39,940 nt of DNA from Bacteroidales bacterium (GTDB taxonomy: Bacteria; Bacteroidota; Bacteroidia; Bacteroidales; UBA932), in the NCBI GenBank assembly GCA_017482565.1, contig JAFUMO010000042.1:1-39940 (forward strand), written 5' to 3'. Positions 9,709 through 25,014 of the stretch are shown one piece after another. The notes under the pieces are model-generated. The model was not told the origin of the DNA. It searched no databases and was given only the letters and a program-made list of their open reading frames with translations. The translations under genes and the position numbers were made by a program. How positions within the stretch are numbered: position 1 is the first letter of the stretch; each line of letters begins with the position of its first letter.

Positions 9709-9827
9709 CGTCGTCCTTTTGTACAATCATCTGATACTCAGTACATTTTAAATCACACAGATGATAAATACACGAAATATTCATTTGTAACCTACTGATT
9801 ATACAGCAATTGTACAAAAGGACAACG
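9709..9827. repeat. 119-bp intercistronic inverted-repeat element, copy B
   Basis: Left end CGTCGTCCTTTTGTACAAT (9709-9727) pairs with the right end ATTGTACAAAAGGACAACG (9809-9827) with one mismatch in 19. The interior is AT-rich and not alike to the other copies. It sits between the ATPase stop (9836) and the start of the permease (9693), both on the minus strand. No TAnnTTTG promoter was found inside. Confidence 0.8.
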
Positions 9828-10516: not shown

Positions 10517-10532
10517 AACCTTAACTTTTTTA

Positions 10533-10650
10533 CGTCGTCCTAATTTATAATAAACTTAGAATCAACGCCTTAAAATTTAACACTTATTTTAATTTATATT
10601 TTTCTATTTTACACTCTACTAATAATCAATTAATTACAAAAAGGACAACG
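10533..10650. repeat. 118-bp intercistronic inverted-repeat element, copy C
   Basis: Ends TTTTACGTCGTCCT (10528-10541) and AGGACAACGTAAAA (10641-10654) pair with one mismatch; beyond that the arms diverge, so this is the weakest inverted repeat of the five. The interior is almost pure A/T. It separates the permease at 10661-13006 from the ATPase downstream on the minus strand. Confidence 0.75.
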
Positions 10651-10660
10651 TAAAATAAAA

Positions 10661-13006
10661 TTACTCGTTCTTGAGCGATTCCACCGGATTGGCCCAGCTG
10701 ATGCGGAGGCTGTTCAACACAACAACAGCTATAGTAAGCAGCACAACTGTCAAAGAGCCGGCAATAAAGAACCACGGAACCAGGGCAACCTTCTCTGCAA
10801 ATCTCTGCAGTACCAGATCACCTACATAATATGCAGCCGCACATCCGAGAACCACGGCAACTGCAGATAATTTAAGCACGTCATAGACAAATAGCCCGAG
10901 CACCTCTGCAGAACCTGCTCCATTTATTTTACGGACAGCCATTTCTGCACTCCTGCGCTGTGTCTCATCCTTAATATATCCTACCAGACCTATCAAGGAG
11001 ATAATCAATGAGAACAGGCCGCCCAAAAGAATCGCATCGTTAATGTTCTTGATGTCAGAAAAAGCTTCCTTCATGCCGTCCGAGTATGCTGTAACCTCAA
11101 GTTCCTTGTCGGGAAACAGATCATCTACAATTTTCTGCACAGAGAGAATGGAGGCCGGGGTAAGCTCAATCATCTTTACCACAACTCCTGTTAGATACAG
11201 GTTCTTGTCCCCCCTTACTGCTGCAAAGCGGATGCTTGGCCTGTCATCAACATATACTCCACCAATCTTATAATCCTCATACACACCGCAAATTGTAAAA
11301 ATATCATCTTTGGTCTGGGAATGTTCAGTAAGGATAACCCCTTTTCCTATGGCGCCATCCTGCCAATCCGCAAACTCCTGCATCTTCTCCACAAACTTGC
11401 GGCTTACAGCCACCTCATTTGCGGCAACTGCCTCCCTTCCCTCAAGGAACTTGATGCCAAACACCTCTGCAGCCCCTTCCGAAAAATTATACTGGTCAGC
11501 CACATTGAACAGTTCCCTATCATCTCCAGGCAAATAGATGTTGTTTCCCGACGATCCGCCAACAGGCATAGTTGAAGCCACCGCACTCTTCTGCACTGCA
11601 GGCAGCACAGCAATGGCATCATTTACCTTAAAGCAATCATCCGCACTTGCACCAGGCATATTTACAACAAGCACATTGTCAAACTCGTACCCCAAATTAT
11701 CATTCATCATCATATCATACTGCCTTGCAAAAATCACCATAATTACCACAAGGAAAACAGTAAAGGTAAACTGCAGCCCCAGGAATACCAGCTTCCATTT
11801 CCTCTTGGACTCCTTGTAGCTCCTGAAAGCTGTAGAAACCGGAATCCCCATAAAGACTTTTGCAGGGATAAGCGCCGAAACCAAAAATGCAATTACACAA
11901 ACCCCAACTGCCAGCAACACAGCCTCCGGAGTAAACAACCCTTCAAGTGAAGCCCCCAGCAACCTTGTTATCCACCCCTGCATGGCAAAAATTATTGCAG
12001 CCGCCATTATTCCCGACAGCATCACATCCAGCCCTGCCTCCTTGAAGAACATCCACATGATGTTGCTGCTCTGGGCACCATAGCATTTCCTTACCCCAAC
12101 CTCCTTGGCCCTCTTCACCACAGATGAAATGGCATTCAGGACATAGTTCACCACAGATGCGGCAATAAGGATGAAGGCAACAAGAGAAAGCATTATGACC
12201 ATGTTCCTGTTGGTACTCACAGAGAGATGGTCATTGCCGGCACTCTCAAGATAATACCACAGCTTCAGGCCTCCCTTCTCCAGCTCCTCCATAGGCTGGT
12301 TCTGCTCCTGCATCTTGTGTATGGCATCTGCAAGGGATTTGGGGTCTGTCCCCTGTGCAAGTTTCACCCATCCCTTGTACCTGTCATTGCCAACCCAATT
12401 CTCAGTACTTCTCTTGTTGTATGTTGCCATAGAGAGGAGCATATCCACATCTCCAAAAGTACTGTTCTGGGGAAAATCTTCATAAACCCCCTCTACAGTA
12501 AACTTTATATGCGGCAAAGACTCATTATAAAGTATCTGCCCTACAGCCTTCTCCGCACCACCCAATTTCTGTGCAAAAGAATGGGATACCATCATCTTTC
12601 CCCACTCCCCCAAAATTCTGTGAGGGTCACCTGTATAAATCTCCCTTGTAAAAATGTCAAAGAAACTGGTATCTGCCAGCACCAGATCTGCCGAGAGCTT
12701 GTTCTTCTCCTCAGTATAATAATTACGGTTATCAAAAAGGGGTGTAATCCTTGTAGCCACCTCCACTCCCGGAACGCACTCCCTGAATCCCGGCGCAACA
12801 GCACCGCTGATCTGGTTGGCCTGCATAGGATCTTCATTATGCCTCTGATATCCTGTCATGATAGTATAAACCCTATCTCTGTCCTCATAAAATTTATCAT
12901 ACTGCAGCTCAAAGCACACCTTTGCAATCAGCACCACTCCAATTGCCAGCCCCAGTGCCAACGACAATACCTTAACAAAATTTTTCCCAAGTTTCATAAG
13001 CTTCAT
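10661..13006 (-). CDS. FtsX/MacB-like ABC permease, third type
   Basis: Permease of 781 residues with the same overall plan (N-terminal helix at about 10-30, periplasmic MacB-like domain, helices near 275-395 and 410-430, a second periplasmic domain, C-terminal helices from about 675) and the tail ANPVESLKNE. It is clearly of the family but its sequence is not close to either member of the duplicated pairs. It opens the transcription unit permease-ATPase-permease-permease and carries the full control module upstream: palindromes at 13015-13052, the sigma-54-like promoter at 13061-13077, and paired palindromes at 13133-13168. Its ATG at 13006 is only eight bases from the first palindrome, leaving no obvious Shine-Dalgarno; ATG at 12997 is an alternative start. 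Confidence 0.85.
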   Translation of the reverse strand: MKLMKLGKNFVKVLSLALGLAIGVVLIAKVCFELQYDKFYEDRDRVYTIMTGYQRHNEDPMQANQISGAVAPGFRECVPGVEVATRITPLFDNRNYYTEEKNKLSADLVLADTSFFDIFTREIYTGDPHRILGEWGKMMVSHSFAQKLGGAEKAVGQILYNESLPHIKFTVEGVYEDFPQNSTFGDVDMLLSMATYNKRSTENWVGNDRYKGWVKLAQGTDPKSLADAIHKMQEQNQPMEELEKGGLKLWYYLESAGNDHLSVSTNRNMVIMLSLVAFILIAASVVNYVLNAISSVVKRAKEVGVRKCYGAQSSNIMWMFFKEAGLDVMLSGIMAAAIIFAMQGWITRLLGASLEGLFTPEAVLLAVGVCVIAFLVSALIPAKVFMGIPVSTAFRSYKESKRKWKLVFLGLQFTFTVFLVVIMVIFARQYDMMMNDNLGYEFDNVLVVNMPGASADDCFKVNDAIAVLPAVQKSAVASTMPVGGSSGNNIYLPGDDRELFNVADQYNFSEGAAEVFGIKFLEGREAVAANEVAVSRKFVEKMQEFADWQDGAIGKGVILTEHSQTKDDIFTICGVYEDYKIGGVYVDDRPSIRFAAVRGDKNLYLTGVVVKMIELTPASILSVQKIVDDLFPDKELEVTAYSDGMKEAFSDIKNINDAILLGGLFSLIISLIGLVGYIKDETQRRSAEMAVRKINGAGSAEVLGLFVYDVLKLSAVAVVLGCAAAYYVGDLVLQRFAEKVALVPWFFIAGSLTVVLLTIAVVVLNSLRISWANPVESLKNE

Positions 13007-13014
13007 TTTTTGTA

Positions 13015-13052
13015 AGTCGTGTCACGACTGTCATTGTACCCGTGACACGACT
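13015..13052. promoter_or_regulatory. Two 15-bp palindromes, 23-bp spacing (array 1)
   Basis: AGTCGTGTCACGACT (13015-13029, perfect around its centre) and ACCCGTGACACGACT (13038-13052) have centres exactly 23 bp apart. For the minus-strand gene at 13006 they lie in the 5' leader; the outer one overlaps the transcription start expected from the sigma-54-like promoter (about 13050). They are likely protein binding sites. The binding protein is unknown. Confidence 0.7.
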
Positions 13053-13060
13053 GTAAATTG

Positions 13061-13077
13061 AACAATGCCCGTGCCAA
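13061..13077 (-). promoter_or_regulatory. Sigma-54-like promoter for the permease-ATPase unit
   Basis: The minus strand reads TTGGCACGGGCATTGTT: the -24 element TGGCACG, N4, then TTGT where the consensus is TTGC. GG (13075-13074) and GT (13063-13062) are separated by exactly 10 bases, the spacing required for sigma-54. The same element with the same flanks (TTGTTCAA) precedes the TolC gene. The T in place of C at -12 is the one departure from consensus. Confidence 0.6.
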
Positions 13078-13132
13078 AAGATTCAACTATTTGATTATAT
13101 GTATATTGAATAAAAACAGGAAAGAGAAAAAG

Positions 13133-13168
13133 TGTAAAGAAACTTTACAACTGATAAGAATCTTTACA
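13133..13168. promoter_or_regulatory. Paired upstream activator sites TGTAAAG-N3-CTTTACA
   Basis: TGTAAAGAAACTTTACA (13133-13149) is a perfect palindrome around AAA; TGATAAGAATCTTTACA (13152-13168) is a weaker second one with its centre 19 bp away. Together they also form a hairpin (GTGTAAAG...CTTTACAC, 13127-13174). They lie about 90-110 bp upstream of the predicted start, the usual place for enhancers bound by NtrC-type regulators. Because this region is between divergent genes, a terminator role is unlikely here. Confidence 0.6.
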
Positions 13169-13252
13169 CTTTTTGGTTTACACTTGAGGCATAAAGTTCC
13201 GGAAGCTGGCAAATTCATCTGTCAAATGGGAGTGTACTCCGCAAATTATCTT

Positions 13253-13260
13253 TAAATTTG
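13253..13260 (+). promoter_or_regulatory. -7 element TAAATTTG for the M28 peptidase gene
   Basis: TAAATTTG matches the Bacteroidetes TAnnTTTG element and lies 17 bases before the ATG at 13278. No convincing -33 TTG was found at the standard distance. Confidence 0.5.
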
Positions 13261-13277
13261 CGCCAAACTGATTTATC

Positions 13278-14624
13278 ATGAAAAGATTTTTCCTGACATT
13301 TGCCTTGGCGGCCGGCATACTGGGCGGCTGTACAGAAAACCACGACAAGAATCTGCAGAAGCTGGAAAGCTTCATACAGAACGATACTTCAATGACCGGC
13401 AATCTCCGGACTATATGCAAGGAATACCCTGCAAGACTGTCGGGAAGCAGGAATAATGCCGGGGCGCAGGAATTTATATACAGGGAGCTGAATGATATGG
13501 GTGCAGAGACTTCCCTCATGGAGGTGGAGGTACCGAACTGGTTTGGGGGAGAGAGTTCCGTTGAGGTGATTTTCGGGAAGCAGCGGCTCAATATTCCAAG
13601 TGTGAATCTGGGGCTCGCCGAGGGGACAGGCGGCAAGGTGATTCAGGAGCGCGTGGTGGAGATAAACACCCGCAGGGAGCTTGGGGAGAAGGATGTAAAG
13701 GGAAAAATTGTCTTTTTCAATGATCCGATGAAAGGGCACAGTGATTATGGCCGTGCGGTATGGCAGAGGAGGGACGGAATAGCTGAGGCAGCAGAAAGGG
13801 GGGCCCTGGGTGTTGTAATCCGTTCCGTTACCCAGTTCATGGACAGCCACCCTCATACCGGATCGCTCATCTACAGCCCGAACGCCCCTAAAATACCGGC
13901 TGTGGCCATTTCTACCATTGAGGCTGAAAAGCTTTCCAGGATAATTTCAGAGAACAGGAGTGTGAAGATTGCACTGAGTTCTACTGCAGGAACCAGGGAG
14001 GGGAAGGCAAAAGGGAACAATGTGATTGGAGAGATTAAGGGAAGCGCCAATCCGGAGAACATAATCCTCGTTACCGGTCATCTGGATTCGTGGCATATTG
14101 CAGAGGGGGCTCATGATGACGGCTCCGGAGTTGTTATAGCCATGAATGTCCTGCGTGCTTTCAAGGAGGCAGGCATTCAGCCGTACAACACAATAAGGGT
14201 AATGCCTTATCAGGACGAAGAGGTAGGGCTGCAGGGAATCCATACATATTCAGCCAACAAGAAGGGAAGCGGAGAAAAGCATATCTTCCACCTGGAATTT
14301 GATCTTGGAGTGGGAGCGCCCAAGGAGATAAGTTTCTACGGAGATTCTGCCTCAACCGCCAGGATCAACAACTTACTGGCACAATATCCTATAGGGTATA
14401 AATCAACCCCTGTACTGAAACATGCAGGAGTAACCAACCACTTCTCAACAACAACACAGCTTGGCTCAATGATGGGTATCTTCATCGCCGACAACGATGC
14501 GGACTATTTCCTCTACCACCACGCTTCCAACGATAATTTTGAGGTGGTGGACCAGCAGCAGCTGAAAGAGTGCTCAGCCGCCGTAACAAAACTCATCTAC
14601 CTGATGGACAGGCTGTATAAATGA
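13278..14624 (+). CDS. M28-family metallopeptidase lipoprotein
   Basis: Exported zinc aminopeptidase-like protein of 448 residues. The N-terminus is a lipoprotein signal ending LGGC (Cys18), so the protein should be anchored to a membrane facing the periplasm or surface. A PA-like region precedes the catalytic domain. Metal-binding residues of clan MH are visible: His268 and Asp270 in VTGHLDSW, Asp280 in GAHDDGSG, the Glu314/Glu315 pair in PYQDEEVG, Asp342 in LEFDLGVG and His414/415 in YHHASND. The family removes N-terminal residues from peptides. It is divergent from the export genes and shares their 271-bp upstream region, which places it next to the sigma-54 module, but its own promoter looks like the housekeeping type. 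It ends in a strong hairpin shared with the DUF2442 gene. Confidence 0.9.
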   Translation: MKRFFLTFALAAGILGGCTENHDKNLQKLESFIQNDTSMTGNLRTICKEYPARLSGSRNNAGAQEFIYRELNDMGAETSLMEVEVPNWFGGESSVEVIFGKQRLNIPSVNLGLAEGTGGKVIQERVVEINTRRELGEKDVKGKIVFFNDPMKGHSDYGRAVWQRRDGIAEAAERGALGVVIRSVTQFMDSHPHTGSLIYSPNAPKIPAVAISTIEAEKLSRIISENRSVKIALSSTAGTREGKAKGNNVIGEIKGSANPENIILVTGHLDSWHIAEGAHDDGSGVVIAMNVLRAFKEAGIQPYNTIRVMPYQDEEVGLQGIHTYSANKKGSGEKHIFHLEFDLGVGAPKEISFYGDSASTARINNLLAQYPIGYKSTPVLKHAGVTNHFSTTTQLGSMMGIFIADNDADYFLYHHASNDNFEVVDQQQLKECSAAVTKLIYLMDRLYK

Positions 14625-14632
14625 TAGAAAGA

Positions 14633-14673
14633 ACTGGCACAAAAGTCTGTTAAGAAATAACTTTTGTGCCAGT
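14633..14673. terminator. Bidirectional terminator hairpin
   Basis: ACTGGCACAAAAGT (14633-14646) and ACTTTTGTGCCAGT (14660-14673) form a perfect 14-bp stem with a 13-base loop. It lies between the convergent stops of the M28 peptidase (14624) and the DUF2442 gene (14681) and should serve both. Confidence 0.75.
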
Positions 14674-14680
14674 CTCATGT

Positions 14681-14932
14681 CTATTCTAAAATTATTCCTT
14701 GTTCATATAGGAATTCCGGAGCTACATCAATAGAACCATCCTGCCAGGTTACTGTCCAGCCGTCTAATGTAACTTTTCTGAAGACAGCCATATCTTTCAG
14801 CGGTAGATACAAAGGGTTATCACCATTCAATAACAACCGGAAGTCATACAATCTCCTGCAACCGTCATTAAATGTAAGGCACATGACATACCCATCAACA
14901 ATTTTTGCATCCACTATCCATACAAGATTCAT
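14681..14932 (-). CDS. DUF2442 domain protein
   Basis: Small protein of 83 residues with the DUF2442 pattern: a beta-rich fold with VMCLTFNDGCRRLYDFR near the front and a C-terminal stretch on assigned secondary structure ending YEQGIILE. The start ATG (14932) overlaps the stop of the DUF4160 gene as TGATG, so translation is coupled; a GTG three bases earlier is also possible. DUF4160 and DUF2442 genes are a recurrent pair in bacteria and are often suspected to form a toxin-antitoxin-like unit, but no activity is established to my knowledge. No signal peptide or membrane segment. Confidence 0.8.
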   Translation of the reverse strand: MNLVWIVDAKIVDGYVMCLTFNDGCRRLYDFRLLLNGDNPLYLPLKDMAVFRKVTLDGWTVTWQDGSIDVAPEFLYEQGIILE

Positions 14933-15189
14933 CACTCCAGAGGTTTAATTCTTTTTGACTGCTTCCCGTTCCTGAGCAGTTCCCAATTCTCAAACAATTC
15001 AGCTTTGTGCAAATTTAACCATTCGAGTACTAATCTCATAGCTCTTGGTGGTAATTGTCCAGTAATTTTACCATTTTCTATCTCAATAATAGCTCTATAA
15101 TTGTCATATCTGATATGAAAATGTGGAGGGCTGTGTTCATTGATGAACATCGTAATGACTATTCCATAGAAACGGCTTATCTCAGGCAT
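14932..15189 (-). CDS. DUF4160 domain protein
   Basis: Protein of 85 residues starting MPEISRFYGIVITMFINEHS with the family hallmark PPHFHIRYDNYRAIIEIENG. The ATG at 15189 is chosen over an upstream one at 15243 because it matches the family start and has AAAGGAGG eight bases before it, one of the best ribosome binding sites in the window. The gene comes first and the DUF2442 gene second, overlapping by one base. The pair is monocistronic with respect to its surroundings and lies between two lipoprotein genes on the other strand, so it looks like a small mobile cassette. An 11-bp inverted repeat upstream (15278-15314) could be its operator. Confidence 0.82.
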   Translation of the reverse strand: MPEISRFYGIVITMFINEHSPPHFHIRYDNYRAIIEIENGKITGQLPPRAMRLVLEWLNLHKAELFENWELLRNGKQSKRIKPLE

Positions 15190-15277
15190 TGTGATATCCT
15201 CCTTTAATAAGTGTTTCAATACTGGAATTACATGTCCTGCCAAGGAACAGGGCTTTTAAATAAGTAATCAATCGCAT

Positions 15278-15314
15278 AGTAATACAATTTAGGGTTAATA
15301 ATCATTGTATTACT
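15278..15314. promoter_or_regulatory. Inverted repeat upstream of the DUF4160/DUF2442 pair
   Basis: AGTAATACAAT (15278-15288) and ATTGTATTACT (15304-15314) are perfectly complementary, with a 15-base spacer. The site lies about 90 bp upstream of the DUF4160 start and about 120 bp upstream of the divergent 5'-nucleotidase gene. It may be an operator, for example for autoregulation of the pair; no protein is assigned. Confidence 0.45.
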
Positions 15315-15412
15315 CTCTCCTCCATCGCAAAGCTACACAAAAACATGCGTAAACAGGGTAAATTTTCACCTTACAGAAGGTAATTTTTTCTTTTGTAGAA
15401 AACAATATTTGA

Positions 15413-15420
15413 TAAATTTG
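15413..15420 (+). promoter_or_regulatory. -7 element TAAATTTG for the 5'-nucleotidase gene
   Basis: TAAATTTG lies 10 bases before the ATG at 15431, with TTTTG at 15391-15395 about 17 bases upstream as a -33 candidate. Confidence 0.6.
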
Positions 15421-15430
15421 TACCTACTCT

Positions 15431-17056
15431 ATGAGAACTACTGTTAAATTACATATCGCCCTCCTGCTGGCTGCAATAACATTGCTGCCGGGGTGCCATC
15501 AGAAGGCGGAGGGGCCGCAGCGCCCTTTGAGCCCGGTTGTCATCCTGTTTGACAATGATGTGCATTGCGGAGTGGACGGGTATGCTGCAATGGAGACGCT
15601 GCAGCAGGCAAGCAAGGGCAGAACGCCATACGTTGCAATAGTAAGCTGCGGGGATTTTGCGCAGGGGGATGTTATAGGTTCGGTTTCCAGAGGGGAGCAT
15701 ATTGTGGATATAATGAACCTTGTTGGGTATGATTTCATTACTCTGGGCAACCATGAGTTTGACTACGGCATCCAAAGGATGGCTGAACTTACGGAGAAAC
15801 TTCAGGCAAGGACACTTTGTGCAAACTTCAAGGACATACAGGCCGGGGAGCTTGTGTACAAGCCATTTGAGATTGAGAGATACGGCAATGTGGATATTGC
15901 CTTCCTTGGCATAGCAACTCCTGCCACTGCAACTTCAGTCTCCCCAAAGATATTTCTGGACGAACAAGGCAATATCAAATACAGCTTCCTCAGGCAGACA
16001 TTCTTTGAGAGCATCCAGCAGCAGGTAGATGCAGCCCGCATGCAGGGGGCAGACTATGTGGTAGCCCTTTCCCACCTGGGGGACCTGAGTGACGGAGAAA
16101 ACCCAACCTCAGTGGAACTTATCGGGAAGACAACAGGAATTGATGTGGTACTGGACGGCCATGCCCACAGTGTTATTCCCGACAGCCTTATCCTGAATGC
16201 CCAGGGAACACCGGTGCTCCTGGCATCTACAGGGACAAAATTTGAGCATATTGGGGTGCTGGAACTCTCTGTGGAGGGGAAATTCGCCTCAACCCTTGTT
16301 GCAGCTGAAGGGGTGCAGAAAGATGCTGGGGTGCAGAATTTTGTAGAGAGCATCAAAGGACAGGTCCTTGCGGAGGGTGAGCGGGTGATAGGGGAAAACA
16401 TGCAGCTCCTTGCCGCCAATGACCCGCAGGGAAACAGGCTTGTGAGGATGCAGGAGACTGCAATTGGAAATTTCTGTGCCGATGCGTTCCAGGTGATGCT
16501 TGGGACCGAAATTGCCATGATAAACGGCGGCGGCATAAGGGCAGACATACCAGCCGGAACGGTTACATTCAACACCTTATATTCAGTTTTCCCGTTCAAC
16601 AATACAGCCTGCACAGTCTCTGCAACAGGGCAGCAGCTGCTTGATATCCTGGAAGTTTCCGTAATGAGTCTTCCTGGAGAGGATGGCAGCTTCATGCAGG
16701 TGAGCGGCCTGAAGTTCGTTGTGGACCCTTCCGTTGCAACCCCGGTGGTGCTGGATGCCAACAACCTCTTCTCTCATGTTACAGAAGGGGCTCCAAGACG
16801 CGTTTCGGATGTCCAGATACTTGATGCCGCTACCGGAGAATATACCTCCCTCCTTCCCGACAAGACCTACACCATAGGCGGCATCTCATACAACCTCACA
16901 GAATACGGCAGCTGGGGAATGTTCCGCTACACCACCCTCCTCCAGAACAACCTTGGGCAGGATGTGGACATCCTTACAGGCTACCTGCAGCAAGAACTGG
17001 GCGGGGTAATAGATTCCCGCTATGCTGCACCGGAGGGGAGGATAACGATAAAATAA
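15431..17056 (+). CDS. 5'-nucleotidase/UshA-like metallophosphoesterase lipoprotein
   Basis: Exported hydrolase of nucleotides or similar phosphoesters, 541 residues. The signal ends LLPGC (Cys22), a lipobox. The N-terminal calcineurin-like domain has the two-metal site: Asp41 and His45 in LFDNDVH, Asp75 in SCGDFAQGD, Asn107-His108-Glu109 in LGNHEFD, His214 in SHLGD, and His243/His245 in DGHAHS. The C-terminal 5'-nucleotidase domain (about 330-541) has NFCADAF and INGGGIRADIPAG, which bind substrate. DNDVH in place of the usual TNDxHG is a small variation. Transcribed alone and convergent with the permease at 17085, 28 bases away, without an obvious terminator between them. Substrate specificity cannot be told from sequence. 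Confidence 0.9.
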   Translation: MRTTVKLHIALLLAAITLLPGCHQKAEGPQRPLSPVVILFDNDVHCGVDGYAAMETLQQASKGRTPYVAIVSCGDFAQGDVIGSVSRGEHIVDIMNLVGYDFITLGNHEFDYGIQRMAELTEKLQARTLCANFKDIQAGELVYKPFEIERYGNVDIAFLGIATPATATSVSPKIFLDEQGNIKYSFLRQTFFESIQQQVDAARMQGADYVVALSHLGDLSDGENPTSVELIGKTTGIDVVLDGHAHSVIPDSLILNAQGTPVLLASTGTKFEHIGVLELSVEGKFASTLVAAEGVQKDAGVQNFVESIKGQVLAEGERVIGENMQLLAANDPQGNRLVRMQETAIGNFCADAFQVMLGTEIAMINGGGIRADIPAGTVTFNTLYSVFPFNNTACTVSATGQQLLDILEVSVMSLPGEDGSFMQVSGLKFVVDPSVATPVVLDANNLFSHVTEGAPRRVSDVQILDAATGEYTSLLPDKTYTIGGISYNLTEYGSWGMFRYTTLLQNNLGQDVDILTGYLQQELGGVIDSRYAAPEGRITIK

Positions 17057-17084
17057 TCCCCCCGCCCCGGTCCAACGCTGCCCC

Positions 17085-19442
17085 CTACTCCTTCTTCAGC
17101 ACCTTGGCCGGATTGGTACGCATGAGGGTGTATGCGTGGAAGGTTATGGCGGCAAGGACTATTGCCAGCACTACAGCCACCGCGCCAATGTATATGAAAG
17201 GGGTATTGTCAATTCTCAAAGGGTACTCCTGCAGCCATCTGTAGATGTACAGATATGCCAGCGGAATGGCCACAACGGAGGCTGCAAGCACCGGTGCAAA
17301 GAAGCCCCATACCGTTCTCCAGAAAACTGTGCTCTGGGATTCCCCGCACACCTTGTAAATTGCTGTGGAGCGGGCATTAACCTGGGTGTAATAGTTACCC
17401 AAAGCTGTAATGGCAAGAGCCGTGATGATGATGCTTATAATTGCAAAGATATCCAACAGGCGCTTGAGGTTAAGCTCCTCCTTATATGCATCCTCAATAA
17501 TCCCGGTTGCAGGTTTTACACTGATGTTGTAATTGTCATACCCTCTGGCAGCATAAAACTCCTCTATCCTTTCTGCAGCTTCATTTGCATTGCCTGAGAC
17601 CTGTACTATAAGGTCCATTGAGGCCAACGATTCAGAATTTTCATCGGGAATAATCCTTAAGCCAACAATATTTTCCCCTTTGGGGGCATTCTTCAAGGTG
17701 CCTAACTTGAAATCATTTACCGTTCCGCTTATATAACAGGCATTTACGTATGTACCCCATCGGCTCCACAACGCATTCTCAAGCATTATGGAAGAGTATT
17801 TCTCCATTGAGGTTTCAGTAAGATACATATAACCTTCGGACATTCCGGTATTAAGGGTCTTGTTATGGTCTGTAAGGTTGAAGCCCATCATATCTGCGGC
17901 TGCCTTATCTGCCGCCAGATAGGTCATTTCATAATTATTCTCATTGGTGTCATTAAAGAACGTCATGATCCAGGTCACCGCCGGATAAGTTGATATATGC
18001 CCTACACTCTCCACATAGCTTTCCCCCTGCAGTTCATCTTCAAGCCTTTTATCCTCATCAGAGTTGAAACTCACATAAACCGTCCCCTCCGTTTTGTACC
18101 CTCTCGGCTCATTTATAAGAAGGGCGGTCTGCTGGAAAATTGCTATACACACTGCTATTGAGAATATACTGAGGACTCCTTCAAAGCACACAAAAGCCTT
18201 GCTCAAGAACATTTTGTCCTTAAATCTCTCCTCCCCTTTTATAACCTGGACAGGGTTATGCCTTATTGCAAACAGGGCCGGTACAATACCTGCAACCAAA
18301 CCCATCATAATTATTATTCCCGACAGCAATATATATTCATTCAGATGCTGCATAGGATCCAGTTTCACTCCCAGAATTGCCCCAACATAATTGTCCAGGC
18401 CCATTGCTATAAGAATTGCAATAAGATAAAATACCACAAGCAACACAAATGCCTCTGCAATACATCTTAAAGCAATCCCCCTCTTTTCTGTACCCAAAAG
18501 CTGGCGGGTTGCAAACTCCTTCAGCCTCAATCTGGAGAAGGCAATGGTAAGGGCTATATAGTTGAACAATGAGGCAAGTACCAGAAATGCACATATAATC
18601 ATGTAAGTATCAAGTATCTTGCCATTCTTCATGTTATCAAAGGCCCCTTGGAATGTTCTATCCTGCTGCTCCCTGATCCGGCTGAATTGTATAAGCCTCA
18701 TCTCCCGTACAGGGCGCTTTGGCCTCACCCCTTTATTGTAATCGGCCTTGAGCTTTATGGAAAGTTCAGAAATGTCCGCATTATCTGTAAGTTCCAGAAA
18801 CACAAACGCACCTGAACCCATACTACCACGAGTTGCTGTTTTCATCGTCTCATTGAATTCCTCAATATTGATGATTACATCACCTTGTTTCAATGTGGTT
18901 TTAGGGAACTCCCTATAAACACCGCCTATGACATAATCCTTATCAACAAACCCTTGTGAAAACAGCCTCACTGTCTTCCCTACGGGGTTTTCATCGGGAA
19001 AAAAGGTATTGGCCACCTTCTCTGAAATTACAATATTGTTTCTGCCTGCCAATACCTCCCCTTTTTCCCCACAGGCAAGGGGGAATGAAAAGAATTCAAA
19101 GAAATTATTGTCCGCAGGCATCACTGTAACTGCCATATCCTCCCCTTTGCACTTAAGGTGAAGTATATCTCCTATGATTTGAGTCTTGGGGAATTGTACA
19201 CGGCATCTGCCGGTTACCTCCGGATAATTGTGGTAGTTGTCATTCTTCTCAAAGCATACAGGTGAATTCTCCTCTACAACCAGATACACATTCTCCATAT
19301 CCCCCAGCACCTTGTCACAACTCATATCATCTACTATATATGAGCCCAATAATATTACAAACGCCAGCGATACGCTCAATCCCACCGCCGTGACAAAAGT
19401 ATATAGCCTGTTTCTGCCTAAAAATCTGAAATAAGTCTTCAT
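17085..19442 (-). CDS. FtsX/MacB-like ABC permease, pair member 2 (copy 2)
   Basis: Permease of 785 residues beginning MKTYFRFLGRNRLYTFVTAV, clearly paralogous to the permease at 4929-7271 over its length, and ending TNPAKVLKKE. Helices near 15-38, 280-300, 330-350, 365-395, 425-445 and three from about 670 flank two MacB-like periplasmic domains. It follows the permease at 19482-21875 after 39 bases. The two therefore repeat the order seen at 7294-9693 plus 4929-7271, which means that a permease pair was duplicated as a unit. It is the last gene of the TolC-adaptor-permease-permease unit, which encodes no ATPase. Confidence 0.85.
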   Translation of the reverse strand: MKTYFRFLGRNRLYTFVTAVGLSVSLAFVILLGSYIVDDMSCDKVLGDMENVYLVVEENSPVCFEKNDNYHNYPEVTGRCRVQFPKTQIIGDILHLKCKGEDMAVTVMPADNNFFEFFSFPLACGEKGEVLAGRNNIVISEKVANTFFPDENPVGKTVRLFSQGFVDKDYVIGGVYREFPKTTLKQGDVIINIEEFNETMKTATRGSMGSGAFVFLELTDNADISELSIKLKADYNKGVRPKRPVREMRLIQFSRIREQQDRTFQGAFDNMKNGKILDTYMIICAFLVLASLFNYIALTIAFSRLRLKEFATRQLLGTEKRGIALRCIAEAFVLLVVFYLIAILIAMGLDNYVGAILGVKLDPMQHLNEYILLSGIIIMMGLVAGIVPALFAIRHNPVQVIKGEERFKDKMFLSKAFVCFEGVLSIFSIAVCIAIFQQTALLINEPRGYKTEGTVYVSFNSDEDKRLEDELQGESYVESVGHISTYPAVTWIMTFFNDTNENNYEMTYLAADKAAADMMGFNLTDHNKTLNTGMSEGYMYLTETSMEKYSSIMLENALWSRWGTYVNACYISGTVNDFKLGTLKNAPKGENIVGLRIIPDENSESLASMDLIVQVSGNANEAAERIEEFYAARGYDNYNISVKPATGIIEDAYKEELNLKRLLDIFAIISIIITALAITALGNYYTQVNARSTAIYKVCGESQSTVFWRTVWGFFAPVLAASVVAIPLAYLYIYRWLQEYPLRIDNTPFIYIGAVAVVLAIVLAAITFHAYTLMRTNPAKVLKKE

Positions 19443-19481
19443 CTTTAAATAAATTTTACAACCTCACAATTTCAATGCCGC

Positions 19482-21875
19482 CTACTCCTTCTTCACCACT
19501 TGGGCAGGGTTCTCGCCGGCCGCTTTCCAGGAGCGGAGGGTAACGAGGGCCACAGTTACTGCAAGGACTGCCACAAGTGAGGCCGCAAATGCCCACCAAG
19601 GGACTGGGATACGGTTTGCAAACTGCTCCAGCCAGCGCTGCACAATCCACCAGGCCACCGGTGCCGCAACTGCAAAGCATACCAGAACCATTTTCACATA
19701 ACTGTTGTTGAGCATCCCCACAAGCTGCCCCCTCTCTGCTCCATACACCTTGCGGATGGCAATCTCGCTGCGGCGGTGCTGGGTCTCAAACATCACTATC
19801 CCAAAGACACCCATCAGGGCTATCACCACTGCCAGCAGGGCAAAGAGCCCAATTGTAACCGTTGCCTTCTTGGTTGAGTTGTAGAGGTTGCCTATAGCCT
19901 GATTGAAGAACATCACTTCCGGCTCGTCACTGCCAGGAGAGAACTCCTGTACAAGATCTTTTACGAATGTTGTGAACGCCTTTACATCTGCTCCAGGCTG
20001 AAGGCGGACATAATAGGTACCATATCTCTGTGAACCGCAACACAATGCAATATACGATACATTTTCAGATGCGGGGGCAAGCTTCACATCTTTCATGAAT
20101 CCTACCGCAGTAAAGCCACTCTCCACCTGCCCTAATGGGACACCCACCTCTGCATGCAATTTCTTTGTAACCAGCATATCCCTACGGCTATGCGACTGCT
20201 CGGTAAATCCCTCCCCTTCAATGACACCAATTCCAAAAAACTCCGGCAAATTCCACCTTACATTCCAAACATTCAGCATATATTCTTTCCCATCATAAGT
20301 TCTGCCCCATCTGCTCCATGTCTTTGTAATGGGACTCACACACGCGGTAACATCAACCGCATCGGGATACTGCTGCAGCTTCTCCACTACAGCCTCCCCA
20401 TTTTTGCTTATATCAAATGAGGTAAAAGTAAGGATATTCTCTCTGTCCAATCCGATATCATAATTAACAATATACCTGTATTGTATCCAGAAAGAGGCAG
20501 CCACAATAATCAGAGCCATTGCCACGGCAAACTGGAAGCCTGCAAGAATCCTTCTTATTCTCCTTCCACTCAGCGAACTTGCATATCCTGCCTTTACACC
20601 TAAAGAGGCATTGAACCTGGTGATATGCACTGCAGGGTAAAAGGCTGCCACTACTGCCAGGATGAGCATCAGTACAAGGATGACTGAAATTACCGTAAAG
20701 TTGTGGGGAAGAGCAAGGGAACAGGTCACATACTCTGTGATGAAGCTTCCCTGCAGGGCCTGGATGATTCCCATTGCCAATACAAATGCCACCAGCACCA
20801 GCCCAATTGCCTCAAAGAGAAAACCCCGCCTGAGAATCCCCTGCCCTGCGCCGAATACCTTGCAGATATTTACCGAGCGCATCCTCACCGGTACAAGGGC
20901 CATGAAGAAGTTTACAAAGTTTATGAAGGCAATTACTACTATCAGCATTGCTATGGCAGCAAGGGTTACGGTAGAGCCTACTGTACCTGCTTCATATTCC
21001 GGGCTGCTGAGATTCCCCTCATAATACATTTTGTCCAAAGGGATAAGTCTGATTGGCAGAACCTCATCACCCTCCTCAAAAATTTCTTCATCGGGATACT
21101 TGGCTTTCCACTCCTCAACCATTCCCAGCATCCATTGGGCATACTTGTCCATCCAAATCTTCTTGAACTGTTCTGTATCAGCACCTTTTTCAAGCTTCAC
21201 GTAATGATTGTAGTTCCAACTGTTGTTTCCGTTACCATCCTTGCAATTGTCATTTCTGAAAATGTGATGGTTGTACAAGAAGGTATTCTTTGGGAAATCC
21301 TTGAAAATTGCCACAACAGTCTGCGGCAGCTCCGGCTTCATATTGCTGTTCCACTCGCCTCCCTCAAACCATATCTGGTCTCCTGTTCCTACACCTATCC
21401 TCCGGGCTGCACTCTCAGAGATTACAACGGTATTGGGCTGGCCTATCTGCCTGGCATCTCCTGCAATAATCTCAAATCCAAACACATCTATTCCGTCGGG
21501 AGACATATCATAACTTCCCATATTGTATTTCTGGAAATCTCCCTGCCCGGTTTTTCCCCATACCCTGTGGGGCTGTGCATACTCCCTGAAGTGGGTAAAA
21601 GATACCGCCTGAGGGAACATCTCCACTGTCTCACGTGTTACCGGATGTGGTGAACTGGGACTCCATTCAGCATTTCCCTCTCCAATATTACCACCCCACA
21701 GCGCCGAAATCATATACACCTGGTCCGCATCCTTGAGCGGCCTGTTATAAGTAACCTGATACCACACCTGCGCCGCAATTATGTAGAACGCCACAAACGC
21801 CAGCGTAAGCCCCACTATATTCAACACCCCCGCCACCTTGTAGCGCTTGAGTGTCATAAGGAAATTCTTGATCAT
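19482..21875 (-). CDS. FtsX/MacB-like ABC permease, pair member 1 (copy 2)
   Basis: Permease of 797 residues, paralogous to 7294-9693: N-terminal helix about 15-36, first periplasmic domain, helices around 300-420, a second domain, then C-terminal helices from about 690 and the tail ENPAQVVKKE. The motif TQHRRSEIAIRKVYGAERG near residue 690 is the conserved cytoplasmic loop of MacB/FtsX proteins. It is preceded by inverted-repeat element D and, before that, the adaptor gene on the same strand. Position after TolC and adaptor genes suggests that this pair forms the inner-membrane part of a tripartite exporter. Confidence 0.85.
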   Translation of the reverse strand: MIKNFLMTLKRYKVAGVLNIVGLTLAFVAFYIIAAQVWYQVTYNRPLKDADQVYMISALWGGNIGEGNAEWSPSSPHPVTRETVEMFPQAVSFTHFREYAQPHRVWGKTGQGDFQKYNMGSYDMSPDGIDVFGFEIIAGDARQIGQPNTVVISESAARRIGVGTGDQIWFEGGEWNSNMKPELPQTVVAIFKDFPKNTFLYNHHIFRNDNCKDGNGNNSWNYNHYVKLEKGADTEQFKKIWMDKYAQWMLGMVEEWKAKYPDEEIFEEGDEVLPIRLIPLDKMYYEGNLSSPEYEAGTVGSTVTLAAIAMLIVVIAFINFVNFFMALVPVRMRSVNICKVFGAGQGILRRGFLFEAIGLVLVAFVLAMGIIQALQGSFITEYVTCSLALPHNFTVISVILVLMLILAVVAAFYPAVHITRFNASLGVKAGYASSLSGRRIRRILAGFQFAVAMALIIVAASFWIQYRYIVNYDIGLDRENILTFTSFDISKNGEAVVEKLQQYPDAVDVTACVSPITKTWSRWGRTYDGKEYMLNVWNVRWNLPEFFGIGVIEGEGFTEQSHSRRDMLVTKKLHAEVGVPLGQVESGFTAVGFMKDVKLAPASENVSYIALCCGSQRYGTYYVRLQPGADVKAFTTFVKDLVQEFSPGSDEPEVMFFNQAIGNLYNSTKKATVTIGLFALLAVVIALMGVFGIVMFETQHRRSEIAIRKVYGAERGQLVGMLNNSYVKMVLVCFAVAAPVAWWIVQRWLEQFANRIPVPWWAFAASLVAVLAVTVALVTLRSWKAAGENPAQVVKKE

Positions 21876-21888
21876 ACTCTTTTTTTTA

Positions 21889-22007
21889 CGTCGTCCTTTT
21901 GTATAGCTTCAACATTCTCAATGCTTTACAAAAACAACTGTTTAAAATTATTTAAAAAACAAAATTCTACTTTACTATTAATCAACGAGTTATACAAAAG
22001 GACAACG
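21889..22007. repeat. 119-bp intercistronic inverted-repeat element, copy D
   Basis: CGTCGTCCTTTTGTATA (21889-21905) pairs with TATACAAAAGGACAACG (21991-22007) with one mismatch in 17. The interior is AT-rich and unlike the other copies. The adaptor stop codon (22013-22015) is only five bases from the right end and the permease ATG (21875) 13 bases from the left end, so the element fills the whole gap between the two genes. Confidence 0.8.
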
Positions 22008-22012
22008 ATAAA

Positions 22013-23269
22013 TTAAAATACAAGTACTTCATTGTCACCAAAATTATCGTAGCCGCTTACAACTACCTTCTCGCCCGGCTCAAGGCCTTCAAGGACTTCG
22101 TAGTATTGTGGGTTCTGGCGGCCGATGCGGATCTCGCGTTTGGTGGCTGAAGAGCCATCCTCTGAAACTACGTAGATCCAGCGGCCTCCGGTCTTCTGGT
22201 AGAAGGTGCCGCGAGGGATGAGGACAGCCTCTTCGCTCTGTCCCAACTGGAGGTTCAGGTAGTAGGTCTGGCCTGTACGGATGTTTGAAGGCTGCTCCCC
22301 GTCAAATTTGAAGTCAGTCTTGAACTTTCCGTCACGCACCTCAGGGTATACCTTGCGGATAACGGTGCTGTAAAGTTCGTCCTGCCTCTCAAACTGTGCC
22401 TGCAGACCTGCCACAACTCTATCAATATAATGTTCATCCACCTGTGCCTCAATCTTGTATGAATCAAGGTTATTTATCTGACCAACCTTTACTCCGGCTG
22501 CTATGCTCTGTCCGAGAGCCACATCAAGCAAACCCAGCTCTCCGTCTATAGGGGCCTTGATGGTAAGGTTATCTTTCCTCTTGCGGATCATCTGCATGTT
22601 CAGGCGCATATTATTGAGGCTCTCATTCATCTGCTCAATCTCCACAGCACGGTAAAGGCTGTCCTGCTTTGCACGGGTCTCCACCAGCGCCAGCCTGTCT
22701 GCAGCCAGCATATAATCCTCTTCAGCCTTCAGCCACTCCTCCTTAGAGATAAGTTTCTCCGCGTACAGCTCACGGGCACTGTCATATGCCCTCTTGCTGC
22801 GGCGTACCTCAACCCTCAGCTGAAGCATCTCCTGATACACGCTCAGTTTCTGCTGCTCCATTGAGATCATTGTATTGCGGAGCAGATTCTCCTTCTCCGC
22901 CAGCTCAGCCTCTGAATTTAGGATCTGCAGATCCAGACTCTCATTGCTCAAGACCAGAATCACATCCCCCTTCCTCACACGCGACCCCTCCTCAATAACA
23001 ATCTCCTGCACAACTCCACCCTCCAGCGGCGAAATCTGAATGGTTGTCATAGGCTGCACCTGCCCCGTAACCCTGATGTAGTCATTGAACTCGCCGCGGA
23101 CCACCTTCCCGTAAGAAAGGGTATCCCCATTCACACGCAGGGTACTTGAATTGTCACGGAAAACCAGCCACAACACAAAAACCACCACAAAAACTCCCAA
23201 CCAATAAGGCAATGCCCTCTTAGTGAACACCGCCGCAAAACCTTTTTTCTTCTCAATAATCTTGTCCAT
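22013..23269 (-). CDS. HlyD/MacA-like periplasmic adaptor subunit
   Basis: Membrane fusion protein of 418 residues linking inner-membrane permeases to an outer-membrane channel. A single helix at about 18-37 anchors it, followed by a beta-barrel/lipoyl region (from about 65, with VTGQVQPMTTIQISPLEGG), a long alpha-helical hairpin with coiled-coil character (about 110-235), the second lipoyl half (IKAPIDGELG, about 238-247) and a C-terminal membrane-proximal domain ending NFGDNEVLVF. It follows the TolC-like gene and precedes the permease pair, the usual order of a tripartite exporter. Three 15-bp palindromes at 23-bp spacing lie upstream (23346-23406), but no sigma-54-like promoter there, so it is probably transcribed with TolC. 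Confidence 0.9.
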   Translation of the reverse strand: MDKIIEKKKGFAAVFTKRALPYWLGVFVVVFVLWLVFRDNSSTLRVNGDTLSYGKVVRGEFNDYIRVTGQVQPMTTIQISPLEGGVVQEIVIEEGSRVRKGDVILVLSNESLDLQILNSEAELAEKENLLRNTMISMEQQKLSVYQEMLQLRVEVRRSKRAYDSARELYAEKLISKEEWLKAEEDYMLAADRLALVETRAKQDSLYRAVEIEQMNESLNNMRLNMQMIRKRKDNLTIKAPIDGELGLLDVALGQSIAAGVKVGQINNLDSYKIEAQVDEHYIDRVVAGLQAQFERQDELYSTVIRKVYPEVRDGKFKTDFKFDGEQPSNIRTGQTYYLNLQLGQSEEAVLIPRGTFYQKTGGRWIYVVSEDGSSATKREIRIGRQNPQYYEVLEGLEPGEKVVVSGYDNFGDNEVLVF

Positions 23270-23345
23270 ATCCTGTTATTATTTATTTCTAATTTTCTTC
23301 CCAATAAATATCATCAAACCACTGGAAACCAAACTTTTAATTTAC

Positions 23346-23406
23346 AATCGAACCACGGGTTCAATGTAAGTCGTGACACGACTACAAGTAAAGTCGAGAC
23401 ACGGAT
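23346..23406. promoter_or_regulatory. Three 15-bp palindromes, 23-bp spacing (array 2)
   Basis: AATCGAACCACGGGT (23346-23360), AGTCGTGACACGACT (23369-23383, perfect) and AGTCGAGACACGGAT (23392-23406) have centres at 23353, 23376 and 23399, exactly 23 bp apart. The array fills the gap between the TolC-like gene stop and the adaptor gene, without an attached promoter or TGTAAAG sites. Confidence 0.65.
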
Positions 23407-23410
23407 ACTC

Positions 23411-24811
23411 CTATTGCTCTATATACGGTACCCCGTTATAATATTCCACTATACTCCTCTTGAGGTAGTACTTCAGCAGGGCATTCAGCTGTTCGGCCTT
23501 GGCGGAGAGCCAGTTGCCGGAGGCAGTCTGGTATTCTATAGGGGAGATGAGCCCCTGTTCGAATTTCCTGGTGTTGTACTTGTAGGCTTCTGTCTGGACT
23601 TCCGCCTGTCTGGAAGCCTGGAGGAATGCGGCACCGGCACCTTCCCTATCCTGAAGGGCACGTGTTACCTCTGCCTCTATCTCCCTCATCTTCTGCTCAT
23701 ATTGGGCAGTTGCCCTCACGTAAGCATTCTTCTTCTTTGTGATTGTAGCCTGCCTGTAGAGCCTTCCGTATATAGGGATGCTCATAGAGAGCTGGATATA
23801 TTCTCCCATGTTGTTTTCAAACTGGCTGCTGAAAGAGGGGGCCTTGTAGTTCTTTTCGTCTGGATAGGTAAAATAGCTTGTGCTCCACCCTCCGTTAAGG
23901 TTCAATGAGGGGAGAAGCTGCCATTTTGAGGTGTTGAAGGCCCTCTTGGCATTTAGCATCTCACCCTTTGCTATGTAGGCAGCAGGGAGGGTATTCAGGG
24001 CATTCTCTACAATTTCCTCCTTCCCATTCCCCACGGATCCCTCTGCAACAATTCTCTCCCCATTCTGCAGGGCAGCCTCATCTGCCATTGAAAAGTCAAT
24101 CTCCAACTGCTGGTCCAACGGCCAGAACATCACATCCTTAAGGGTAAGGAGGGCATCATTGTACATGTTGCGGGTGTTTACCAGCTTGTACTCCTTAGCC
24201 GCGAGGTCCGCCTCTATCTGCACCACATCCGCATACCCCTTCTGCCCCAGCTCCTCCTGCCTGCGTGCCAGCTGTACCGCCTTCTGTGCCGCTGAAACCT
24301 CATCCTCAATGGCCTTGGTCATCTGATTGTAGTAAACCACATTGTAATAGGCCTCCATTGTGGCCAGGCATATTTCATCACGGATCTGGTCCTCACGGCT
24401 CACACCCATTGCCGCAGCCGTTTTTGCAATCTTGAGGTTATTCACCGCCTCAAAGCCGTTGAATATTGCAATGCTTCCGCTTGCCTGATATCCGTTCTGG
24501 AACGATGTTGTAGACTTGTAGGTATTGGTCTCCGGATCCACCGAACGTCCGAAATTATAATACGCATAGCTTCCCGCCGAAACCGAAGGGGTGAATGCCT
24601 GCAATATTGCACTGCGCCTCTCCACCTGCGCATCCCTTGTGTCCGCCTGCTGTATCCTCATCTTTGTTGAATTTGACACCGCATACTCCATACACTCCTT
24701 CAGGGTCATTGCCTGGGTCTCCTGCTCCCCCTGAGCCCTCTCCTGGGCCATCATCCCTGTTGTTGCAAATCCGGCTACCGCCGCCGCTATAAAAAAGTTT
24801 TTCAATTTCAT
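23411..24811 (-). CDS. TolC-like outer-membrane efflux protein
   Basis: Outer-membrane channel of the exporter, 466 residues from the chosen ATG at 24811. That start gives a proper signal peptide (MKLKNFFIAAAVAGFATTGM, cleavage near MMAQ); an upstream in-frame ATG at 24925 would add 38 residues translated from the operator repeats and is rejected. The mature part begins with TLKECMEYAVSNSTKMRIQQ, the usual start of the OEP domain, followed by long helices with coiled-coil pattern in two repeats (roughly 30-230 and 270-450). It heads the unit TolC-adaptor-permease-permease and carries the complete control module upstream (24831-25007). No lipobox is visible. Confidence 0.92.
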   Translation of the reverse strand: MKLKNFFIAAAVAGFATTGMMAQERAQGEQETQAMTLKECMEYAVSNSTKMRIQQADTRDAQVERRSAILQAFTPSVSAGSYAYYNFGRSVDPETNTYKSTTSFQNGYQASGSIAIFNGFEAVNNLKIAKTAAAMGVSREDQIRDEICLATMEAYYNVVYYNQMTKAIEDEVSAAQKAVQLARRQEELGQKGYADVVQIEADLAAKEYKLVNTRNMYNDALLTLKDVMFWPLDQQLEIDFSMADEAALQNGERIVAEGSVGNGKEEIVENALNTLPAAYIAKGEMLNAKRAFNTSKWQLLPSLNLNGGWSTSYFTYPDEKNYKAPSFSSQFENNMGEYIQLSMSIPIYGRLYRQATITKKKNAYVRATAQYEQKMREIEAEVTRALQDREGAGAAFLQASRQAEVQTEAYKYNTRKFEQGLISPIEYQTASGNWLSAKAEQLNALLKYYLKRSIVEYYNGVPYIEQ

Positions 24812-24830
24812 ATTCAGATTTATTTTTTGA

Positions 24831-24891
24831 AGTCGTGACACGGGTACACTTACAATCGAGACTCGACTGTAAAGTAAGTCGTGACACGACT
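24831..24891. promoter_or_regulatory. Three 15-bp palindromes, 23-bp spacing (array 3)
   Basis: AGTCGTGACACGGGT (24831-24845), AATCGAGACTCGACT (24854-24868) and AGTCGTGACACGACT (24877-24891) have centres at 24838, 24861 and 24884, again 23 bp apart. In the TolC-like gene's frame they cover the predicted transcription start (about 24889) and the leader. Confidence 0.7.
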
Positions 24892-24899
24892 TCTCTTTG

Positions 24900-24917
24900 A
24901 ACAACGGCCGTGCCAAA
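24900..24917 (-). promoter_or_regulatory. Sigma-54-like promoter for the TolC-adaptor unit
   Basis: The minus strand reads TTTGGCACGGCCGTTGTT. GG (24914-24913) and GT (24902-24901) are 10 bases apart. Sequence and flanks match the promoter at 13061-13077, including the unusual T of TTGT, and the distances to the palindromes on both sides are identical in the two copies. Confidence 0.6.
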
Positions 24918-24964
24918 ACACACAAACATCTGTATTACTGAATTTTAAATAAAAAGCGCCAAAT

Positions 24965-25014
24965 AAAAAAGTGTAAAGAAACTTTACAAGTGGCAAGTTT
25001 CTTTACACTTTTTT
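24965..25014 (-). terminator. Terminator-like hairpin overlapping paired activator sites
   Basis: A perfect 20-bp inverted repeat (24965-24984 with 24995-25014) with a 10-base loop and T-rich tail on the minus strand lies after the deformylase stop (25041), so it can end that operon. The same bases contain TGTAAAGAAACTTTACA (24972-24988) and TGGCAAGTTTCTTTACA (24991-25007), centres 19 bp apart, placed relative to the TolC promoter exactly as the pair at 13133-13168. It may therefore have two jobs. Confidence 0.65.

Follow-up and report, generated by a model that had tools for sequence, protein, structure and literature searches.

Organization of the locus

The stretch of DNA considered here (the window) comprises 39,940 nucleotides and is contig C31 (JAFUMO010000042.1) of the draft genome G000 of a gut Bacteroidales bacterium (GCA_017482565.1; 2.1 Mb, 70 contigs, 89% complete). 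It carries two groups of exporter genes, units A and B, as well as genes for a response regulator of the sigma-54 activator type (1606-3048) and a sensor histidine kinase (197-1405). In front of each unit lies one copy of a putative sigma-54 control module, which consists of a sigma-54 promoter, a block resembling an IHF site, and a pair of palindromic activator sites (dyads) of the form TGTAAAG-N3-CTTTACA. Here we present the two modules, their conservation in relatives, the genes behind them and the regulator that may act on them. The parts of the modules, all on the minus strand, are as follows:

13062-13077, minus strand: sigma-54 promoter of unit A, TTGGCACGGGCATTGT, from a pattern scan
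13084-13096, minus strand: IHF-like site AATCAAATAGTTG, 21 to 9 bases before the GG of the promoter, 0 mismatches to the consensus WATCAANNNNTTR
13133-13149, minus strand: proximal activator dyad of unit A, TGTAAAGTTTCTTTACA, centre 66 bp before GG
13152-13168, minus strand: distal activator dyad of unit A, 2 mismatches, centre 19 bp further out
24868-24874, minus strand: half-site CTTTACA in the leader of unit B, some 40 bases past GG
24901-24916, minus strand: sigma-54 promoter of unit B, TTGGCACGGCCGTTGT, from a pattern scan
24923-24935, minus strand: position of the IHF-like block in the second copy, ATACAGATGTTTG, weak, 3 mismatches
24972-24988, minus strand: proximal activator dyad of unit B, TGTAAAGTTTCTTTACA, centre 66 bp before GG
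24991-25007, minus strand: distal activator dyad of unit B, 2 mismatches, centre 19 bp further out

A check of the raw sequence placed all parts named in a preliminary description of this DNA at the positions noted there, with a constant offset of 11,839 bp between the copies and with proximal dyads that are identical letter for letter. The GG-N10-GT promoters proposed in that description were likewise recovered: under the criterion TGGCAC-N5-TTGC/T (GG-N10-GC/GT), TTGGCACGNNNNTTGY occurs at both places without mismatch. Dyads with at most 2 mismatches number five in the window versus 0.16 expected by chance (one of them, at 2362 inside the regulator gene, is probably a chance match), promoters number two versus 0.25 expected (2 of 100 shuffles also reach two), and the joint occurrence of an exact dyad and a promoter was found twice versus 0.00 expected. 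The genome encodes one RpoN (Sigma54_DBD match, E 1.1e-52).

Conservation of the module and its spacing

The window, two other loci of the same genome (L005 and L006) and the loci of 80 relatives of the regulator together hold 48 distinct dyads that have one mismatch or none. A -24-like element lies within 20-300 bp of 36 of these dyads and is lacking at 12. The distance from dyad to GG was 65 bp in 17 cases, 66 bp in 14 and 64 bp in one, with single cases at 56, 86, 87 and 207 bp; with the whole range of 20-300 bp scanned, 32 of the 36 thus fall at 64-66 bp, and the distances of 86 and 87 bp fit the distal member of a pair. When distances of 40-79 bp were allowed, 35 of 37 modules had a spacing of 64-66 bp. 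Paired upstream dyads recur in the relatives, some of the distal sites being poor (up to 7 mismatches).

The exact pattern, searched with gaps of 40-70 bases in 299 genomes of the family, gave 24 matches in 17 genomes, and the reversed pattern, used as a control, gave none. The gap was 53-56 in 23 of the 24 matches and 45, ten bases shorter, in the remaining one. Two genomes from other families of the order hold three modules with gaps of 52-53. The constant spacing, which the preliminary description had taken to be the feature that was kept, therefore holds within the family and in two other families. Twenty scrambled dyads, two of them repeated by chance, yielded no match in 16 cases and one match each in three; the last, AGTGTAA, yielded three because it overlaps the extended dyad. 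(Note that the sets of loci and genomes overlap, since L021-L024 and L070 on the one side and G166, G202, G223, G196 and G261 on the other appear to be the same records.) The comparison confirmed the dyad and promoter, as far as sequence can do so, as a conserved module of predicted sigma-54 control.

The IHF-like block

An alignment on GG of 40 modules with a spacing of 64-66 bp revealed TAA at -33, CA at -18/-17 and TT at -11/-10, all far above the neighbouring columns. The last two positions fall in a block that resembles the IHF consensus of E. coli, WATCAANNNNTTR, which may not be that of the host. For this count, redundancy among 60 modules was removed with a 12-difference rule, which left 43; the modules of both the alignment and the count had been preselected by spacing (55, 56 and 64-67 bp) and are for that reason uninformative on spacing itself. 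With the consensus placed at -21, seven of the 43 modules had no mismatch, ten had one, 12 had two and 14 had three or more. The 29 modules with at most two mismatches to this E. coli consensus at the fixed place compare with 0.58 in shuffled sequences (0.08 for at most one mismatch), and at other offsets at most one module had one mismatch or fewer. The first copy of the window matches exactly. In L105, where the dyad lies ten bases nearer to the promoter, AATCAAGCATGTG is found one base off the usual position of the block. The module thus appears to contain a third conserved element, IHF-like and at a fixed place, that the preliminary description had overlooked.

Possibly, if rather doubtfully, the block is a site of another factor or a polymerase contact and not of a protein of the IHF/HU family; the conserved TAA at -33 and a conserved C at -26 lie beyond the consensus and would suit such a function. 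However, seven of the 43 modules match WATCAANNNNTTR exactly at one fixed place where none is expected, the genome has two genes of the HU/IHF family, and two sigma-54-like promoters without dyads (a very small control) show 6 and 7 mismatches at the corresponding place.

Genes behind the modules

The genes of the window that concern the modules are the following, in the order of their coordinates:

197-1405, minus strand: sensor histidine kinase, 402 amino acids (Pfam HATPase_c, 2e-21)
1606-3048, minus strand: response regulator and sigma-54 activator, 480 amino acids (Pfam Sigma54_activat, Response_reg, HTH_8)
3207-4844, minus strand: catalase (Pfam Catalase, 4e-190)
4929-7271, minus strand: MacB/FtsX-type permease, unit A (Pfam MacB_PCD and FtsX)
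7294-9693, minus strand: MacB/FtsX-type permease, unit A (Pfam MacB_PCD and FtsX)
9836-10516, minus strand: ABC ATPase of the MacB/LolD/DarD type, unit A (Pfam ABC_tran, 2.3e-37; NCBIfam DarD 289.5 bits, cut-off 375)
10661-13006, minus strand: MacB/FtsX-type permease, first gene of unit A (Pfam; solved relatives 3is6 and MacB)
17085-19442, minus strand: MacB/FtsX-type permease, unit B (Pfam)
19482-21875, minus strand: MacB/FtsX-type permease, unit B (Pfam)
22013-23269, minus strand: periplasmic adaptor of the HlyD/MacA type, unit B (Pfam HlyD_3; NCBIfam DarC 194.3 bits, cut-off 450)
23411-24811, minus strand: TolC-type outer-membrane channel, first gene of unit B (Pfam OEP, 3.1e-41)

Read in the direction of transcription, unit A consists of a permease, the ATPase and two permeases, and is followed by the catalase, the regulator and the kinase; unit B consists of the TolC-type channel, the adaptor and two permeases. 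Across the two units there are five permeases, the sole ATPase is in unit A, and the sole adaptor and channel are in unit B; shared control would hence join two halves of one exporter of the MacB type.

Among 46 modules from the window and its relatives, three without a readable first gene (L050, the first of L087, and L105) were left out. The first genes behind the other 43 are FtsX permeases (21), TolC-type channels (18), ABC ATPases (2), one regulator and one DUF2807 gene, which makes 41 exporter parts. In L066 and L068 a single module precedes, in series, genes for TolC, adaptor, permease, ATPase, permease, regulator and kinase, whereas in the window the exporter parts are split and each has its own module. 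The same set of exporter, regulator and kinase genes is clustered in the distant relatives L058, L066 and L068, and in other order in L087 and L094. The modules from other families precede one TolC-type gene, one permease gene and one DUF2807 gene; near the permease module, in G301, lies a regulator fragment (65% identical) that is truncated where the retrieved sequence ends.

The kinase has a single N-terminal hydrophobic stretch, as judged by eye, and a Pfam search gave no separate sensor domain; its top NCBIfam model is AtoS with 123.9 bits, far below the cut-off of 646. A hairpin of 20 pairs lies between the catalase and the regulator (3180-3136), and TATCTTTG, immediately upstream of the regulator gene, resembles the -7 box of Bacteroides. 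On these two grounds the regulator gene may have its own promoter. Terminator-like sites in general are at chance level (14 seen versus 12.0 expected).

The catalase gene stands between unit A and the regulator, and a catalase gene likewise precedes the regulator in the near relative L021; it is absent from that place in L022, L023, L024 and L070. Between genes of the operons occurs a repeat bounded by inverted ends TACAAAAGGACRACG (9709-9827, 21889-22007 and 30380-30499, with a diverged copy in 10517-10660). The ends number 31 in the genome at no more than one mismatch (control 3), and of the end pairs seven are 104 bp apart, one 105 bp and one 94 bp, like a short inverted-repeat element of the miniature inverted-repeat transposable element (MITE) or enterobacterial repetitive intergenic consensus (ERIC) kind. 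Elsewhere in the genome, a sigma-54-like promoter, TTGGCACTCAATTTGC, is found at L167 (C28:21493-21508) shortly before a reading frame whose beginning, by eye, is GroES-like (MNIKPLADRVLVE).

The candidate activator

The regulator encoded at 1606-3048 is composed of a receiver domain, an AAA+ domain with a GAFTDA loop, and a Fis-type helix-turn-helix with the helix ISRPTLYAKLKKY; its Pfam matches exceed the cut-off, and its closest solved relatives are regulators of the NtrC family. The closest named relatives are at most 84% identical and come from metagenome-assembled genomes of Bacteroidales, many of which originate from ruminant and deer guts. Of the four full sigma-54 activators encoded in the genome, only that of the window contains the helix ISRPTLYAKLKKY; the remaining three carry ISERTLYRKIKEL, ITRYALYRKLDKL or no helix. 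One helix pattern fits all 81 regulators compared (the one of the window and 80 relatives), in keeping with the kept dyad. The loop is GAFTDA in 80 of the 81 and GSFTDA in one, in a set that leans this way since the search patterns included FTDAHTDH. The paralogue on contig C60 also carries GAFTDA. One paper counts this sequence among the loop variants that are thought to keep activity.

A dyad with at most one mismatch is present in 37 of the 80 loci of the relatives. In 11 of the 80 it lies no more than 150 bp upstream of the regulator gene, a position that points to self-control in some relatives; in two of the 11 (L046 and L048), the module is directed towards a divergent operon. Of 39 genomes in the genus, the six that hold the module are the same six that hold the regulator at 79-100% identity. 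A second activator, 44-46% identical, occurs in these six as well, so that co-occurrence within the genus alone cannot pick the regulator, and the contig neighbourhood was used instead: 11 of the 13 modules in the six genomes are on the contig of the regulator, and two, both in G166, are on that of the paralogue.

The regulator at 1606-3048 is accordingly ranked as the best candidate for the activator of the dyads, a standing that concerns sequence comparison. An unlikely alternative is that the dyads are bound by another activator, for example the 45%-identical regulator on C60, which has its own kinase, and that the regulator of the window has other targets; the presence of that paralogue in the same six genomes would fit. 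Against it, its recognition helix differs (ITRYALYRKLDKL), its contig holds only the two modules of G166, no dyad was seen by eye within 801 bases around its start, and it is the regulator gene of the window type that a dyad precedes in the 11 loci mentioned above. The earlier proposal that the regulator at 1606-3048 turns on both export units through TGTAAAG-N3-CTTTACA is therefore supported by comparison, binding itself being predicted.

Further dyads and leader half-sites

The exact dyad occurs at five places in the genome, two in the window, two on contig C34 and one on contig C17. The two on C34 (2981-2997 and 5834-5850; L006) lie between the promoter and the start codon of genes for FtsX-type permeases, and each of these units has an additional, one-mismatch dyad 65 bp upstream of a promoter TTGGCACGGTTTTGT. 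Both promoters are GG-N9-GT and thus one base short between their elements. The dyad on C17 (13258-13274; L005) lies directly before the start codon of another FtsX-type permease gene; a TTGGCA-type element was not found in the 1.28 kb scanned upstream of that gene, where an Abi-like fragment is present instead. The two permease genes on C34 are predicted to be further targets, and these genes and that on C17 are probable members of the regulon that the preliminary description had overlooked.

Exact TGTAAAG or CTTTACA half-sites are found in 13 of the 43 leaders versus 0.26 expected from shuffles, a count that stands for fewer than 13 independent events because many of the leaders are from near relatives. 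That the half-sites serve feedback is a guess. In the available text of a study on Desulfovibrio, activator sites downstream of sigma-54 promoters are reported for an activator other than DVU2106 (PMC4641369).

Palindromic repeats and the origin of the likeness

The preliminary description had counted two palindromes at each place (centred at 13022/13045 and 24861/24884) as parts of the module. They are present, that at 13045 with two and that at 24861 with three mismatches to AGTCGTGNCACGACT, and form two tracts without assigned strand, both judged to be outside the module:

13015-13052: two units of the dispersed palindromic repeat AGTCGTGNCACGACT
24831-24891: three units of the repeat AGTCGTGNCACGACT, including an extra unit of the second copy at 24831-24845

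Genome-wide, AGTCGTGNCACGACT has 14 exact occurrences and 40 with at most two mismatches (reversed control 3). The units are grouped at 22 places, 19 of them outside the window (L125-L142), mostly in tandem with a period of 23 bp and between or inside unrelated reading frames. A further place within the window is 23369-23406. In the family the repeat accompanies only four of 24 modules, namely the pair in G000 and the pair in G166, with one copy in G166 shifted by 12 bp. As the repeat is dispersed over the genome and absent from the other 20 modules, the palindromes were excluded from the module. The possibility that they are repressor operators around the transcription start, the true module being one of activator plus repressor, is slight. 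It draws on their equal distance from the promoter in both copies of the window and, in the nearest relative, G166, in one module of two, whereas the repeat also stands before, behind and inside unrelated reading frames at the 19 places outside the window, and the candidate operators were rejected as a part of the module.

The sequence between the parts, earlier called largely different, is only fairly so, since the copies have the same base at 27 of 48 spacer positions; the agreement is 32 of 37 for the paired sites and 14 of 16 for the promoter. It is very improbable that the likeness stems only from recent duplication of one upstream region, in which case the spacing would reflect descent and not selection: the agreement in the spacer and the distal sequence shared by the two copies of some relatives (L022) speak for it, but among 40 modules most spacer columns have less than 0.4 bits whereas the sites, the bend block and the promoter reach up to 2.6 bits, and the spacing is kept in other families.

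Proposed mechanism

We consider it likely that both places carry enhancer-type sigma-54 promoters that are driven by the kinase and regulator of the window over a bend made by an IHF/HU-type protein, with exporter genes as targets. The kinase (197-1405) would phosphorylate the regulator (1606-3048), two dimers of which would occupy the paired dyads; the centre of the proximal dyad is about 66 bp upstream of GG. A protein of the IHF/HU family would bend the DNA at the block 21 to 9 bases before GG, and the AAA+ ring of the regulator could then reach the sigma-54 polymerase at TTGGCACG-N4-TTGT and open it. The targets would be unit A and unit B, complementing each other as a MacB-type exporter, and the two permease genes on C34. 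Sequence comparison shows the sites and the distances between them, the bend-like block, the genes behind the modules and the neighbourhood of the regulator. For the protein at each site, phosphorylation, bending, the transcription start, the inducer and the substrate, the account is what we infer.

Several observations count against this account. The regulator family has GAFTDA in place of the usual GAFTGA; 43 of the 80 loci of relatives, many of them short or distant, lack such a dyad; and the exact module is rare in the order (three of 247 genomes, its own included). The six module-bearing genomes of the genus, which also share the second activator, may be one clade. The IHF-like block is weak in the second copy and is defined by a consensus from E. 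coli. Three of the five exact dyads of the genome lie in leaders, which a simple activator picture leaves unexplained.

More tentatively, the modules might represent a rigid class of enhancers, in which the activator works only from about 65-66 bp, over an obligatory bend of the IHF/HU type at a fixed point, and with a further regulator site for feedback in the leader. NtrC enhancers, in contrast, are freely movable. Shifts would then be tolerated only by whole helical turns, as perhaps in the two modules that are 10 bp shorter (L087 and L105), a reading that we hold equally loosely.

Relation to known systems

The regulator shares with activators of the NtrC, AtoC and ZraR types the order of receiver, AAA+ domain and Fis-type helix, the adjacent kinase and the paired dyads before a -24/-12 promoter. 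It differs from them in the GAFTDA loop and in its targets, which would be exporter genes and not genes for nitrogen, acetoacetate or zinc, and its scores are below every NCBIfam equivalog cut-off compared. Sigma-54 promoters that depend on IHF have been described elsewhere (PMC3897727); according to the accessible parts of two studies, the orp operons of Desulfovibrio vulgaris have IHF-requiring sigma-54 promoters on which DVU2106 acts, an activator with a GAFTDA loop (PMC3897727; PMC4641369). The loop and the proposed combination with IHF are alike, the phylum and the targets are not, and the activator sites of that genome are described as variable in distance, most being within 100 nucleotides and some beyond 300 bp (PMC4641369). 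With MacAB-TolC and Dar exporters the window has in common the ATPase, the FtsX/MacB-type permease, the adaptor and TolC. Unlike MacB, its ATPase and permease are separate genes, with a PRK10535 score far below the cut-off, and the Dar models all remain below theirs (DarD 289.5 of 375, DarC 194.3 of 450, DarB at most 87.9 of 700); unlike both, it has five permeases per ATPase, with the genes distributed over two units.

A computational survey of 2025 found COG0577 FtsX-like permeases enriched behind sigma-54 promoters in Bacteroidia, which it called first evidence (PMC12316311). In the available portion of its text no activator, activator site or spacing is named, and the terms IHF and bEBP (bacterial enhancer-binding protein) are absent from its main text. 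The literature searched, with subscription papers mostly outside its scope, gave no recognised naming of this activator or site; among the matches listed, none joins Bacteroides, sigma-54, NtrC and efflux, and none shows TGTAAAG. On these two grounds we describe the system as a new regulon, predicted from sequence, that is built on a known kind of control.

With this finding, sigma-54 control of exporter permeases in Bacteroidales gains a concrete candidate regulator together with its predicted site and targets; previously, judging by the accessible text of the survey, there was only statistical enrichment without an activator (PMC12316311). The fixed spacing together with the bend-like block provides a ready test of the freedom of sigma-54 enhancers. 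If the proposed control is true, many of the unassigned FtsX-type permeases of gut bacteria would belong to one regulon, whose members could be found by their DNA pattern.

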